Shown: piece after piece, positions 692 to 7,554 of the stretch
Numbering within the stretch: the first letter of the stretch is position 1
Layout of the letters: each line of letters starts with the position of its first letter
From: a bacterium
GTDB taxonomy: Bacteria > Campylobacterota > Campylobacteria > Campylobacterales > Sulfurimonadaceae
Assembly (NCBI GenBank): GCA_018824305.1
Contig: JAHJGM010000055.1
Coordinates: 1 to 64,000, forward strand
Reading direction: 5' to 3'
DNA length: 64,000 nucleotides
Notes under the pieces: model-generated
Told to the model about the DNA's origin: nothing
Database searches by the model: none
The model's input: the letters and a program-made list of their open reading frames with translations, nothing else
Program-made: the position numbers and the translations under genes

Positions 692-1381
692 TCAAAATGT
701 GAGACCGCCGCCAAAACTTGATGCAAAACTCGGATCCATGTAGCCTAAGACTCCGCTTTTGTTTTTAAGCATCACGATATCCTGCTTGGGAGCGATACCT
801 TGCGGACAGACAGGCACACATTCACCACAAAGTGTACAGTCATAGATGCCGCTTGTCTGTACCGCTGCGATCGTAGAGCTAATGTCGCTTTGTCTGAGAT
901 CGCTTACATATTTCCAAGACCTTGTCAGTGCAAAAGGGCCTATAAACTCGCTGTTTACACTATAAACAGGACAAGCGCTGTAACAAGACCCACACAGGAT
1001 ACAATCACTTTGCAGTTCATTTTGCTTAGCATCTTGTGGGCTTACCGATATACTCTTAGAGGTTGGTAATCCCCAAGCTTTTGCGATCTTGTTAAATCCG
1101 TACGCTTTGTCCATATCTACAACGAGATCACGCAATACCGGAACATTTCTAAGGGGTTCAATAAGATCTCCTTCACTCGGCTTATATGCACAAGCGAGGA
1201 CTTCCCTGCCATTCACTCGCATAGCACAGCTTCCGCAGACACTGCTTCGGCATCCTGATGAAAATGAAAGTGAGCTGTCTACCTCTGTTTTGATCTGTGT
1301 CAGCACCTGCAACAGAGTAAGATTTTTCTCTTCAATCTCATAGCTGACAAGTTCCTCGCCTCTTTTGATATTAATTGTCAT
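692..1381 (-). CDS. sdhB: Succinate dehydrogenase/fumarate reductase iron-sulfur subunit
   Basis: The 229-residue protein carries electrons between the flavin of SdhA and the membrane side of the complex. An N-terminal [2Fe-2S] ferredoxin domain has Cys44, Cys49, Cys52 and Cys64. The C-terminal half has two cluster motifs, Cys127/130/133 with Cys137 and Cys182/185/188 with Cys192, matching the usual [4Fe-4S] and [3Fe-4S]/[4Fe-4S] sites. The second motif has Cys at every position. The start ATG at 1381-1379 shares one base with the stop codon of a 48-codon ORF, which suggests translational coupling. No cytochrome b or SdhE-like CCG subunit gene follows; the next gene encodes a PAS protein, so the membrane anchor must be elsewhere. 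Confidence 0.9.
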   Translation of the reverse strand: MTINIKRGEELVSYEIEEKNLTLLQVLTQIKTEVDSSLSFSSGCRSSVCGSCAMRVNGREVLACAYKPSEGDLIEPLRNVPVLRDLVVDMDKAYGFNKIAKAWGLPTSKSISVSPQDAKQNELQSDCILCGSCYSACPVYSVNSEFIGPFALTRSWKYVSDLRQSDISSTIAAVQTSGIYDCTLCGECVPVCPQGIAPKQDIVMLKNKSGVLGYMDPSFASSFGGGLTF

Positions 1382-1527
1382 TAGTCGCAGTACTCTCTTT
1401 CATAAAAATCATCATCCATCAATACATCTTCGCAACAACCCTCACCCCAGTTGTCATCCTCATCAAAGATCTCTTTTTTTTCCTCTTCACTCTCTTGTGA
1501 AAACTTTATTTCATCAAAGTCACGCAT
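1381..1527 (-). CDS. Small acidic 48-residue protein between sdhA and sdhB
   Basis: This ORF is too short for usual gene calls but looks real. It starts with an ATG at 1527-1525 inside the last codons of sdhA (22-base overlap). It ends in a TAA whose last A is the first base of the sdhB ATG. The product begins MRDFDEIKFSQESEEEKKEI and ends in a Cys/Asp/Glu-rich tail containing a CC pair, DDD and a C-terminal YCD. Acidic residues make up a large share of the protein. I do not recognise the family. Its place between the two subunits suggests an assembly or regulatory role, but that is only inferred. The alternative is that the frame is open by chance and only couples translation. Confidence 0.6.
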   Translation of the reverse strand: MRDFDEIKFSQESEEEKKEIFDEDDNWGEGCCEDVLMDDDFYEREYCD

Positions 1528-3104
1528 AGCTCATCTCCGTTTTTGTAATAGATCGTATTTGTCTGAAACTCTTGATTTTCATTTGGGTTGTCGTCTCTAT
1601 AATGGGCACCTCGGCTCTCTTCTCTTTTAATAGCGCCCAAAACAACTGCATTTGCGATCTCCGTCATATTTTTAAATTCCAAGAACTCTACTAACTCCGT
1701 GTTATAGATCAGGTTTGTATCTCTAACACCCATGAGAGGAAGATCATCTCTTAAGCGTTCCAAATATCCTAAAGCTTCTGTTAGCATCTTATGATTGCGT
1801 TTAATGCCGACATTTTCATAAAACTGTTCACAAAGCTCATCTCTTTTAGTATAAAAATCTATCTTACATGCAGGATCTTGCAGCTCCAATATGCACTTTT
1901 TCAGATCTCTACCAGCGTAGCCGTTTGTAGGAGATTCCATGTTTTCTATTGCTAGATTTGCGGCATTTGTTCCGGCTTCGCGTCCAAAGACTATGAGTTC
2001 CAGCAAGGAGTTTCCGCCGAGTCTGTTTGCACCGTGGACTTTATGGTTTGCACACTCGCCTGCTGCAAACAGACCTTTGATGCTTGTCTGAGACTCTGCA
2101 TCCACTTCGATACCGCCCATCGTATAGTGAGCGACAGGCTTTATGGGAATGAGTTCAAATGCCGGGTCTACATTCTCATAAAGTTTTGCCAGTTTTCTCT
2201 CTTGTGGAAGCTGATGATCGATAAACTCTTCGCCTAGATGACGGATATCTATATAGACTTCGCCGCCCTTTGCCATCTCATCGACAATGGCGCGGGAGAC
2301 CTCATCACGAGGAGCCAGTTCGTTTGTAAAGCGCTCTTTATCTTTGTTGAGAAGATATCCCCCCTCTCCTCTTGCACTCTCGCTTATCAAAATAGACGAG
2401 TTTTTAAGCGCTGTGGGATGAAACTGTACAAACTCCATATCGCTGAGTTTTGCTCCCGCTCTAAGCGCCACGGCGATCCCATCACCTGTCGTACCTACGG
2501 CATTTGTCGAGTTGTTGCCGTATATGCGGCTGTATCCGCCCGTTGCCAAGATCACGCTTTTTGCTTCGTGATTCTCGACTTCACCCGTTTTAAGATTTAA
2601 AACGACTGCACCGCCGACAGTGCCCTCATTTACGATAAGTTCAAGCAGAAATCTGTCACTCAGCATCTCGATCTCGTTTGCATTGCACTGATCGTAAAGC
2701 GTGTGAAGGATCTTGAGTCCCGTATAATCCTGTGCATAGCAGGCGCGAGCGGCACTTGCACCGCCAAGACGTCTTTGGGCGATACTGCCGTCTTCATTTC
2801 TGCTAAAAGGCACACCGATAGAATCCAGCCATTTCACGGCTTCGACTCCCTCGTTGCAGAGTTTCTCTATCATCTTCTCATCCGCGATGCCGTGAGCAGA
2901 TTTGAGAGTATTTTCATAATGAGACTTTATGCTGTCTTCGCCTGAGTTCGATAATGCCGCATTGATGCCGCCTTGCGCCATACAGGTCTGTGATCGGGTC
3001 GGATAGGTCTTTGTAAGCACCCTGACACTCGCACCTCTCTCTTTTGCACTCAAAGCTGCGACAAGTCCTGCCCCTCCGGCACCGACAACCAAAACATCTA
3101 TCAT
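1506..3104 (-). CDS. sdhA: Succinate dehydrogenase/fumarate reductase flavoprotein subunit
   Basis: The 532-residue protein catalyses succinate/fumarate interconversion in the cytoplasm. It opens with a Rossmann FAD-binding motif, VVGAGGAGLVAA. Catalytic landmarks follow: the QFHPTAL segment, the RGEGGYL loop, HYTMGGIEVD, and NRLGGNSLLE near the FAD. No Tat signal is visible, unlike exported methylmenaquinol:fumarate reductases. The segment YPTRSQTCMAQGG aligns with the classical PTRSHT motif, but the His that binds FAD covalently is replaced by Gln39. The flavin may therefore be held non-covalently, as in NadB-type relatives. The ATG at 3104 has an AAGGA ribosome binding site formed by the edge of a TTACATGTAA palindrome. 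Confidence 0.9.
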   Translation of the reverse strand: MIDVLVVGAGGAGLVAALSAKERGASVRVLTKTYPTRSQTCMAQGGINAALSNSGEDSIKSHYENTLKSAHGIADEKMIEKLCNEGVEAVKWLDSIGVPFSRNEDGSIAQRRLGGASAARACYAQDYTGLKILHTLYDQCNANEIEMLSDRFLLELIVNEGTVGGAVVLNLKTGEVENHEAKSVILATGGYSRIYGNNSTNAVGTTGDGIAVALRAGAKLSDMEFVQFHPTALKNSSILISESARGEGGYLLNKDKERFTNELAPRDEVSRAIVDEMAKGGEVYIDIRHLGEEFIDHQLPQERKLAKLYENVDPAFELIPIKPVAHYTMGGIEVDAESQTSIKGLFAAGECANHKVHGANRLGGNSLLELIVFGREAGTNAANLAIENMESPTNGYAGRDLKKCILELQDPACKIDFYTKRDELCEQFYENVGIKRNHKMLTEALGYLERLRDDLPLMGVRDTNLIYNTELVEFLEFKNMTEIANAVVLGAIKREESRGAHYRDDNPNENQEFQTNTIYYKNGDELCVTLMK

Positions 3105-4945: not shown

Positions 4946-5785
4946 TTATATGAGATCCAACTCTTCTGAGATATCTTTGATGAGTTTGCTTAACGGGCGT
5001 TTGTGGAGATCTTCATCGCTTACATATCCGCATGTAACAAGACGAAGCAAGTCTTCACGGTTTTTAAAGAGCGTTCCTTCGTAACGGTCAAACAATTCAT
5101 CAATGTAACTTTCGTTGTAAATCTCTGCTTTTTGGATGAGTTCTAAGACTATGTCTTTGTGTTTTTCATACAGTTTATCAAGTCCGAAATCTTCGATGTT
5201 TTTCTGAACTCGTGCATCTTGTGTATTCAAGCTTGTATCAAACCCTTTTTCATCATAATAAAACGAACTGTCTTTTACATGTAAAGAAAAATGAGCTATT
5301 TTCTCAAAACCTTCTTCATAAGGATGAACATGTGTTATCAGAGAAAACTGCTTTGTGCCTTTCATAGTGCTGTTACATGTAGGACAACTTGGGATAAGAT
5401 TGTAAAAAGAAAGCGCCAAAATAGGATATGTCGCTTTGTCGTAAAAGTGGTCGAACTGCGGGCGTGTTGAAGCATTGTTGGACTTGACCGTAAAAGTATA
5501 GTTTCGATTACAATATGGGCAGACATCAACTTTTAATTTTTCGGCTAATTCATATGCATCGTATTCTTCTTTTTGATTTGTAAAGTTTCCATAAAGCTTT
5601 ATCATAAAATCAAAGCTTGTGTCATTTTTATATTGCAGTGCAATCTCATGAAGTTTTTCTGGTTTGGCGGTCATGACCTCTTCAAGAGAATATTTACATG
5701 TAGGGAAGTGTTTGATTTTACCTTTTAGCTTTTCATAGTGTTCTTGTGCCAGTTTAGGCAAATCTGGATGTGAGATTTTTATCAT
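4946..5785 (-). CDS. HNH endonuclease, PtuB-like (Septu-type defence)
   Basis: The 279-residue protein has a zinc-bound HNH core. A CPYCNRNYTF knuckle lies at about residue 92, FDHFYDKATYP at about 112 and a second CPTCN knuckle at about 133. This arrangement is typical of the HNH proteins partnered with ATPases in Septu and retron-Ec78 systems, where the nuclease is the effector. Its ATG overlaps the stop of the upstream ATPase gene (ATGA), so the two form one unit. The C-terminal half is helical and not recognised. I call the family by motif pattern and gene pairing; no profile search was run. Confidence 0.75.
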   Translation of the reverse strand: MIKISHPDLPKLAQEHYEKLKGKIKHFPTCKYSLEEVMTAKPEKLHEIALQYKNDTSFDFMIKLYGNFTNQKEEYDAYELAEKLKVDVCPYCNRNYTFTVKSNNASTRPQFDHFYDKATYPILALSFYNLIPSCPTCNSTMKGTKQFSLITHVHPYEEGFEKIAHFSLHVKDSSFYYDEKGFDTSLNTQDARVQKNIEDFGLDKLYEKHKDIVLELIQKAEIYNESYIDELFDRYEGTLFKNREDLLRLVTCGYVSDEDLHKRPLSKLIKDISEELDLI

Positions 5786-7554
5786 GAATTATCTTCCAAA
5801 ACATCCAAACGATTTTTTAAATTTTCTATTTGGTTTTTAAGCTCATCTATCTCATGAATCTTATCGAGTTTTTTGCTATCCAGCATCTTTTGAAGTTGTC
5901 GTTTTAAAATCGGCTCACCGATAATTGAGATGATATTTTCACAATACTCTATCTCATCTTTTGAGAGCTCTTTTTTGTTCAGATATTTGATCGCATCATT
6001 AATCTTCTCTTTCGCAAACTCCCCCATAAGCCCATCTTTCATAAAAAAACCGTGAGAAAGGAGAGTGTGGATATTTGCTCCGAAGGTTTGTTTATTTTCA
6101 AATGGATAAACCTGTTTTCCTTTTTCTAAAAATATTACATTTTCTTTTGGTAAGTCTGAGAGAATATATGGGGAATGAGTTGCCACAATAAGATGAATAT
6201 TGATTTTATAGATTTTTATAAAAGAAATCAAAGCGTGTATGAGTTTTTTTTGCCATTCTGGGTGCAGAGAGTTTTCAATCTCATCTAGTAAAATAAATAT
6301 GTTTTTAGATGATTCATTTTTTTCTCTTAAATTTACAATATCTCTAACAGAATATAGAAGTTCTAAAAATATTTTTTCGCCAGAACTAAGATTATAGTAA
6401 CCACCTATCCTTGGAACAGAAAAATCTATTTTCAAAAATCTTGGAAGATTTTGTAACAATTTTATATTTTCATCATTTTTTAACTTATCTATTAAAACCC
6501 AATTTGTATAAGTTCCATCTTTCCCTTTTTGCAGTAAATCAAAAAATTTATCAATACTTTTAAATAGATTCAACGATTTTTTTAACTCATTAAATATCAT
6601 AAATTTATCGTTAAATGCCTCAGAACTAGAATGCTTAACCAACTCTTTTTCTTGATTTTCTATTTGCTCTAAAAATGATTGTGTATTTATCTGCTCATAA
6701 AACCTTAAAATTTCTTCTCTTATTTCTTCTCTATTTGTTGAAGATGAAATATCTATATTAAATTTTTTAAATGTTATATCAGAAATGAGTTCAACATCTC
6801 CGTATCCACTAAACAATGAATGAAAATAGCAAATATTTTGTAACAGAAGCAACTCTTTTTTTCCTAATTGATTGTTGTATATTTGTTTGTATTTACTTAA
6901 ATAATCACCTTCCATTTTTTTAATAGATTCTTCTAACCTTTTTTCTTCTACTTTAAGAGATATTACTTTTGGTACGAAAAATTCATTTACATCTACATTT
7001 TTATAAAAATCATCATGAACTAAATTTATTAGTTTTTTGAGAGTTTTTTCTTCTTCTATTTTTATATCCAATCTATTGTTATTTTTATTAGGTTCTGTAA
7101 ATATAAAACTCTCTTCATTATAAATCGCATGTGAGTTATCAAGGATAGGAAGACTTAGATCATTCTTATAATGATAAAAAAAAGAGCTTTTATAGTTTAA
7201 TTCAAGGTTTGTAGTTAAATTTTTACTTAGCTTTGAATTCTTATCTATGGGTACATTTGAAAATAACTGATTTGTCTTTTTATCGTAAAGACATAAAGGT
7301 TTGGTACCATTTTTTGAAACATTATTTAGTATTGCTTCTAGTACACCACTTTTCCCACTTCCATTCTCTCCGACAATCGCAGTGACATTAATATTATCTC
7401 CAAAAAAGTTTTTTAAATAAGGCTCTTTTGTTTCTTCTTTATCAATAATTGTTAGTTCATCATTTTCATACTTACATGTAAACCTCGGAGAAAAATTAAA
7501 ACCTTGTTTCTTTATATTTTTATACTCTTCCACCCACAAATAGACAAGTTCCAC
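5782..7554 (-). CDS. ABC/AAA-type ATPase, PtuA-like (Septu-type defence)
   Basis: The 590-residue protein has a split ATPase like SMC, OLD and PtuA proteins. Walker A GENGSGKS is at residues 62-69. An ABC signature NLSSGEK is near 389, Walker B ILLDEIENSLHPEWQ near 424 and the switch histidine in VATHSPYILSDLP near 458. About 300 residues of charged, coiled-coil-like sequence lie between Walker A and the signature, and a leucine-rich coiled coil ends the protein. The likely role is to sense infection or DNA and gate the HNH partner. Base composition is more AT-rich than the flanking genes, which suggests horizontal transfer. Other AAA-HNH defence families are possible. Confidence 0.75.
   Translation of the reverse strand: MELVYLWVEEYKNIKKQGFNFSPRFTCKYENDELTIIDKEETKEPYLKNFFGDNINVTAIVGENGSGKSGVLEAILNNVSKNGTKPLCLYDKKTNQLFSNVPIDKNSKLSKNLTTNLELNYKSSFFYHYKNDLSLPILDNSHAIYNEESFIFTEPNKNNNRLDIKIEEEKTLKKLINLVHDDFYKNVDVNEFFVPKVISLKVEEKRLEESIKKMEGDYLSKYKQIYNNQLGKKELLLLQNICYFHSLFSGYGDVELISDITFKKFNIDISSSTNREEIREEILRFYEQINTQSFLEQIENQEKELVKHSSSEAFNDKFMIFNELKKSLNLFKSIDKFFDLLQKGKDGTYTNWVLIDKLKNDENIKLLQNLPRFLKIDFSVPRIGGYYNLSSGEKIFLELLYSVRDIVNLREKNESSKNIFILLDEIENSLHPEWQKKLIHALISFIKIYKINIHLIVATHSPYILSDLPKENVIFLEKGKQVYPFENKQTFGANIHTLLSHGFFMKDGLMGEFAKEKINDAIKYLNKKELSKDEIEYCENIISIIGEPILKRQLQKMLDSKKLDKIHEIDELKNQIENLKNRLDVLEDNS

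Follow-up and report, generated by a model that had tools for sequence, protein, structure and literature searches.

A selected small acidic protein gene between sdhA and sdhB in Sulfurimonadaceae, with a tentative role in SdhA assembly

The window, a 64,000-nucleotide stretch of contig JAHJGM010000055.1, carries on its minus strand the sdhA/frdA flavoprotein gene (1506..3104, 532 aa) and the sdhB/frdB iron-sulfur subunit gene (692..1381, 229 aa), whose products match TIGR01812 (succinate dehydrogenase/fumarate reductase flavoprotein, 3.1e-172) and TIGR00384 (iron-sulfur subunit, 7.7e-53), respectively. Between them, on the same strand, lies a small ORF kept in relatives (1381..1527, stop included), which starts with an ATG at 1527, ends with a TAA at 1381, and encodes the 48-aa acidic product MRDFDEIKFSQESEEEKKEIFDEDDNWGEGCCEDVLMDDDFYEREYCD. 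The two overlaps described in an earlier, sequence-only reading of this DNA were borne out: 22 bases (1506-1527) are common to sdhA and the small ORF, and base 1381 is shared by its TAA and the ATG of sdhB. A Shine-Dalgarno-like GGAG (1535..1538, minus strand) is located inside sdhA, 7 bases before the small-ORF start, with an anti-SD duplex of -6.6 kcal/mol. Elsewhere in the window (4946-7554), an ATPase and HNH-like pair matches the candidate defence system PDC-M62A/B (5.6e-114 and 2.6e-84) and separates genes that adjoin each other in relatives.

The product is strongly acidic and unlike a random translation, as the sequence-only reading had held. Asp and Glu make up 21 of its 48 residues (0.44); mononucleotide shuffles (n = 20,000), 0.9% of which left the ORF open, averaged 0.107 and never exceeded 0.29. 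The Cys pair that it had pointed out is present as C31-C32, at the head of a CCED stretch (C31-C32-E33-D34, codons at 1426..1437, minus strand); the Cys that it had placed at the C-terminus is penultimate, and the protein ends with Asp in E-R-E-Y-C-D (codons at 1384..1401, minus strand). Within these last codons, GAAAGAGAG doubles as a purine-rich stretch before sdhB.

The host enzyme was examined through its two subunits. The role of the His at the flavin-linking position of SdhA is well established; here this position is Gln39, and of 107 such SdhA, 106 have Gln and one has His, so that FAD is probably bound non-covalently. The third cluster motif of SdhB, CxxCxxCxxxCP, has four Cys in all 92 complete sequences (6 further rows being truncated or misread), where E. 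coli FrdB has a Val at one of the four positions, which suggests a [4Fe-4S] rather than a [3Fe-4S] third cluster. No membrane anchor gene adjoins sdhAB, and no third subunit gene was common to the 21 neighbourhoods compared after clustering the neighbours, most of them unannotated, by BLAST. The lack of an anchor, Gln39, and the four-Cys motif would fit a fumarate reductase that is soluble and binds its flavin non-covalently. Passages of PMC4674564 note a two-subunit copy in a related population genome and report the suggestion of Sievert et al. 2008 that the two-subunit enzyme is located in the cytoplasm and works in the reductive TCA cycle. In one relative (G403, locus L081), sdhA reads as two frames, with a stop before its 3′ part that may be real or a sequencing error, next to an intact small ORF and an intact sdhB.

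To follow the ORF through the family, the sdhA-sdhB junction was read in 55 genomes, namely G002 and 54 of another 55 in which SdhA had been found, G432 being left out as cut at a contig end. The ORF was intact in 23, broken in 1, and unreadable in 2 (G410 and G431, at contig ends), and the other 29 had no room for it, sdhA and sdhB being separated by at most 25 bases or overlapping. Therefore, the ORF is dispensable in many lineages. An intact sdhA-sdhB pair with a broken frame, which the sequence-only reading had named as the observation that would speak against a gene, was seen at one of the 24 readable junctions with room and not generally: in G419, an inserted repeat breaks the frame but leaves its start and its final codons (EWCD) in place. 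Within the genus, six of eight genomes carry the ORF; the other two, G002 and G003, have sdhA and sdhB 10-11 bases apart and a divergent SdhA (62-63%) that falls outside the group of the six ORF-bearing genomes.

The G419 insert belongs to a set of related palindromic repeats of roughly 75-110 bases found at the junction in G312, G451, G433, G439, G438, G419, and G410. They lie in frame within the ORF at L072 and L154, after it at L042, L155, and L164, and break it at L037; the remaining one is at L050. Two are read through in frame, and at three, the ORF end together with the sdhB start occurs a second time beside the insert. These inserts look like a mobile element family with a hotspot at the sdhA-sdhB junction in several genera.

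Profile searches gave a consistent location. Profile A2 matched in 33 of 228 family genomes (5 of 18 genera), always at the 3′ end of sdhA, hence linking the small-protein family to the sdhAB operon; it missed G312 and G342, both of which were read by eye at the junction. On the phylum, A2 matched in 13 of 397 genomes, all from the same family, and profile A1 in 3 of 397, a low yield explained by its derivation from a single genus. A one-genus profile run against 84,980 species genomes returned three loci, from Sulfurimonadaceae bacterium and uncultured Campylobacterales. Mapped on a quick tree of 106 SdhA rows, presence of the ORF changes five times, at least two of these changes being forced by starred branches; a single ancient gain followed by losses and repeated gains would account for this pattern equally well. 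The small protein had no match in Pfam, NCBIfam, or PDB, and no such protein was described in the largely open-access literature searched; a small protein encoded together with the soluble SDH/FRD thus seems undescribed.

Conservation was analyzed in 35 members, the 23 from the junction reading and 12 reached through profile matches (loci L153-L164). This set is biased by the choice of those 12 through profile matches, so the 55-genome count is preferable for frequencies. Members range from 26 to 78 aa, and Asp plus Glu account for 37-50% of the 33 measured. Sequence comparison shows a fast-evolving protein in which two modules are kept, W..(C)CED and a C-terminus of the form E-x-E-[W/Y/M]-C-D. 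The terminal Cys-Asp is present in 34 of 35 members, the exception being G007, which ends with Cys-Asp-Glu; Glu at position -6 is found in 34 of 35, and the residue before the penultimate Cys is Trp in 23 and Tyr in 10. The terminal codons vary (TGC/TGT 18/16, GAC/GAT 26/8). CCED occurs in 26 members and CED in 30, and CCED is written by 10 different 12-base strings, so it is kept as protein. Among the six members of the genus, the N-terminal half drifts, and W-x-EGCCED-x-LM-x-D-x-FYERE-x-CD is mostly invariant.

The two modules do not behave alike. CCED is lost from G342 (the shortest member, 26 aa) and from G312 (an insertion form), both of which keep the ending EREWCD, and G422, G428, G403, and G342 have a single Cys. 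The Cys-Asp ending is also kept where the stop is uncoupled from the sdhB ATG, as in G426, G416, G308, and G403, the distance reaching 19 bases in G426 and G416 and 135 in G308. Because the ending survives both the loss of CCED and uncoupled stops, the C-terminus looks like the essential module and CCED like a frequent second one.

Selection on the protein was measured past the overlap with sdhA. In 12 non-overlapping pairs, chosen by us and representing 24 of the 33 measured sequences, the 232 base differences were distributed 55/35/142 over codon positions 1/2/3, a third-position excess (142/232; binomial p 3.8e-18 versus one third) that the protein-guided alignment may slightly favour. A selected small-protein gene therefore stands in the operon, after sdhA and before sdhB. 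The proposal of the sequence-only reading, a real, translationally coupled, and undescribed small protein in the Campylobacterota sdhAB operon, is thus supported by same-junction relatives and the third-position bias, as well as by the conserved start overlap and the lack of Pfam, NCBIfam, and PDB matches. To call it an SDH subunit, a notion touched on in that reading, would claim more than these observations support.

As to function, we tentatively favour a disordered acidic assembly plug, or holdase, for SdhA that would resemble SDHAF4 by convergence. The small protein, made right after SdhA, would hold free SdhA, its acidic body covering the surface later used by SdhB and its C-terminal Cys-Asp entering the fumarate/succinate site. 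A C-terminal Asp has two carboxylates and is chemically a substituted succinate, which it could mimic. This would keep unassembled SdhA in solution, loaded with flavin and inert to oxygen until it is joined by SdhB, whose translation follows from the coupled ATG and which would displace the small protein. In the weakest step of this scheme, C31, C32, and C47 may make release depend on redox conditions or on whether SdhB has been loaded with Fe-S. The plug is preferred because the protein is acidic with a low-confidence fold, its terminal Asp is fixed, its gene lies between sdhA and sdhB, and the dicarboxylate-site His and Arg are kept in SdhA. AlphaFold, given four sequences only, predicted the window protein with a mean pLDDT of 62.5 and a pTM of 0.28, with two short strands (34-36 and 42-44) in the C-terminal part at a pLDDT of about 74-80. 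The dicarboxylate-site residues of SdhA are H326 and R361, by motif presumably the equivalents of human H407 and R451. That the extreme C-terminus is the most conserved part of a protein varying between 26 and 78 aa also fits a plug, as do its retention in the forms without CCED and at uncoupled stops, the precedent of SDHAF4 described below, and the lack of SdhE (PF03937) and SDHAF4/DUF1674 (PF07896) matches in the genome.

Several observations stand against an assembly plug. The terminal residues are C-D, not D-F as in SDHAF4; G007 extends the ending by a Glu, and the G419 frame is broken. The 29 family genomes with sdhAB and no ORF indicate that the enzyme can be built without the small protein. 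No SdhA column followed ORF presence convincingly, the best (275, 139, and 370) being conservative and confounded by descent, and the conserved Cys has no role in plugging as such. The fuller version of the plug, an independent bacterial one of the complex II type that combines an Asp succinate mimic, a thiol-tied release, and an operon order mirroring the assembly order, appears to us rather improbable.

The conserved Cys would be explained if the peptide served thiol or iron chemistry, its Cys, carried by an acidic disordered chain, binding iron or an Fe-S intermediate for SdhB, like acidic donors of the IscX/frataxin type, or acting as a redox switch of SdhAB, like CP12. We regard this as possible though doubtful. 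The frequencies of the penultimate Cys, CED, and CCED argue for it, as does the position of the gene next to that of the Fe-S subunit. Similar stretches also occur in other groups. In family f11 (18 genomes, 15 with SdhA; L165-L178), all 13 readable junctions hold another, unrelated-looking small ORF with a coiled-coil-like product, and in 5 of the 13 its tail reads PWEEE-x-E-x-GGNCCED followed by acidic residues, so that W-E-E..CCED recurs; the tail has NGRED instead in 1 and is absent in 7, as though detachable. In family f8, 1 of 20 SdhA, that of G064 (L183), has its own acidic C-terminal tail ending with NCCEDID, as if the small module had been fused to it. An hhalign match over 14 columns around CCED (E 4.8e-4, probability 32%) points in the same direction, and common descent of the CCED stretches between the families is possible. 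Outside f11, the f11 profile matched nine f3 genomes marginally (E 0.006-0.01), and these were treated as coiled-coil chance matches. Against a thiol or iron role, several members have a single Cys, 7 of the 13 f11 ORFs lack CCED and another has it in altered form, the protein has no known metal-site motif or Pfam match, and its likeness to CP12 and IscX is one of analogy.

The ORF could instead act mainly in cis, keeping ribosomes on the mRNA and providing with its last codons the sdhB initiation region, the peptide itself mattering little. The overlaps (22 bases with sdhA, and TAATG or TGATG with sdhB) would be explained by such a coupler, the purine-rich last codons give a mean anti-SD duplex of -4.8 kcal/mol in 33 members, and G439, G438, and G433 repeat the ORF end and the ATG after their insert, so the sdhB start context is kept. 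However, the CCED and C-D amino acids are kept while their codons change, the ending persists with the stop 19 (G426) or 135 (G308) bases from sdhB, and the direct joining of sdhA to sdhB in 29 of 55 relatives means that no coupler is needed. This makes a mainly cis-acting ORF rather unlikely.

The same direct joins weigh on the idea that the small protein is an additional subunit of the mature soluble enzyme, for instance an acidic dock for an electron donor that would replace the membrane anchor. Such a subunit would be in keeping with an operon-encoded acidic chain, with the absence of a third subunit gene common to the 21 neighbourhoods, and with a two-subunit enzyme that is thought to be cytoplasmic in the passages of PMC4674564 cited above, but length and sequence are too variable for a structural subunit (26-78 aa), and we consider this quite unlikely. 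A chance ORF without function, to which the patchy distribution and the one broken copy (G419) might point, is scarcely credible given the third-position bias, the two conserved modules, and the fact that, among the 1227 open frames of at least 26 codons in the window, no other than the small ORF contains CCED, and no other ends with E[W/Y]CD.

Three further candidates were rejected. A flavinylation factor was discarded since the genome has no PF03937 match and SdhA has no flavin-linking His. A replacement membrane anchor was ruled out on composition (21/48 residues Asp or Glu), and the protein, which has no Pfam match, does not qualify as a CCG subunit either. An electron-carrier partner of an adjacent CCG subunit was not retained, as the CCG matches of the genome are located away from the sdhAB of the window, on contigs C47 and C8, the latter match beside an sdhA paralog.

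SDH and FRD are textbook enzymes, yet the operon of a soluble form holds a selected small protein that seems undescribed. If the assembly plug is the right reading, the assembly trick of mitochondrial SDHAF4 would have been invented more than once, and there would be a small, operon-encoded bacterial model of it in an enzyme assigned to carbon fixation by the reductive TCA cycle.

Among known systems, CP12 and IscX are likewise small and acidic and serve redox linkage or iron handling; the comparison is an analogy only, neither family being among the Pfam matches of 22 members. The f11 junction ORF occupies the same place between sdhA and sdhB and has an acidic tail, with W-E-E..CCED in 5 of 13, but differs by its N-terminus, coiled-coil-like by sequence pattern, and by the lack of a C-D ending. 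SdhE/SDHAF2 (Sdh5, PF03937) is likewise a helper of the SdhA flavoprotein, a role that is proposed here for the small protein, and its function is covalent flavinylation according to the part of PMC10238741 consulted; in contrast, neither the small protein nor its genome has a PF03937 match, and SdhA has Gln at the linking position.

The closest comparison is with SDHAF4/Sdh8 (DUF1674, PF07896), although the small protein was rejected as a member of that family for want of a sequence match to PF07896 (0 of 22 members at E<=10, and none in its own genome at E<=1). According to excerpts of PMC10238741, SDHAF4 is pan-eukaryotic and has few homologs in alpha- and gamma-proteobacteria. As presented in portions of PMC10784507, SDHAF4 is disordered when isolated and binds SDHA by its C-terminal part before SDHB joins; its ordered part consists of two short strands only, and the SDHA active site is occupied by D107-F108, the final two residues, which mimic a dicarboxylate and face H407 and R451. 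On these accounts, the two proteins are alike in being small, in having an Asp among the last residues, and in having two short strands in the C-terminal part, predicted ones in our case. SDHAF4 acts between SDHA and SDHB, and the gene order here would be compatible with such a step. The acidic terminus is common to both, but it is Asp-Phe in SDHAF4 and Cys-Asp in 34 of our 35 members, and the gene of the small protein, unlike that of SDHAF4, sits inside the sdhAB operon.
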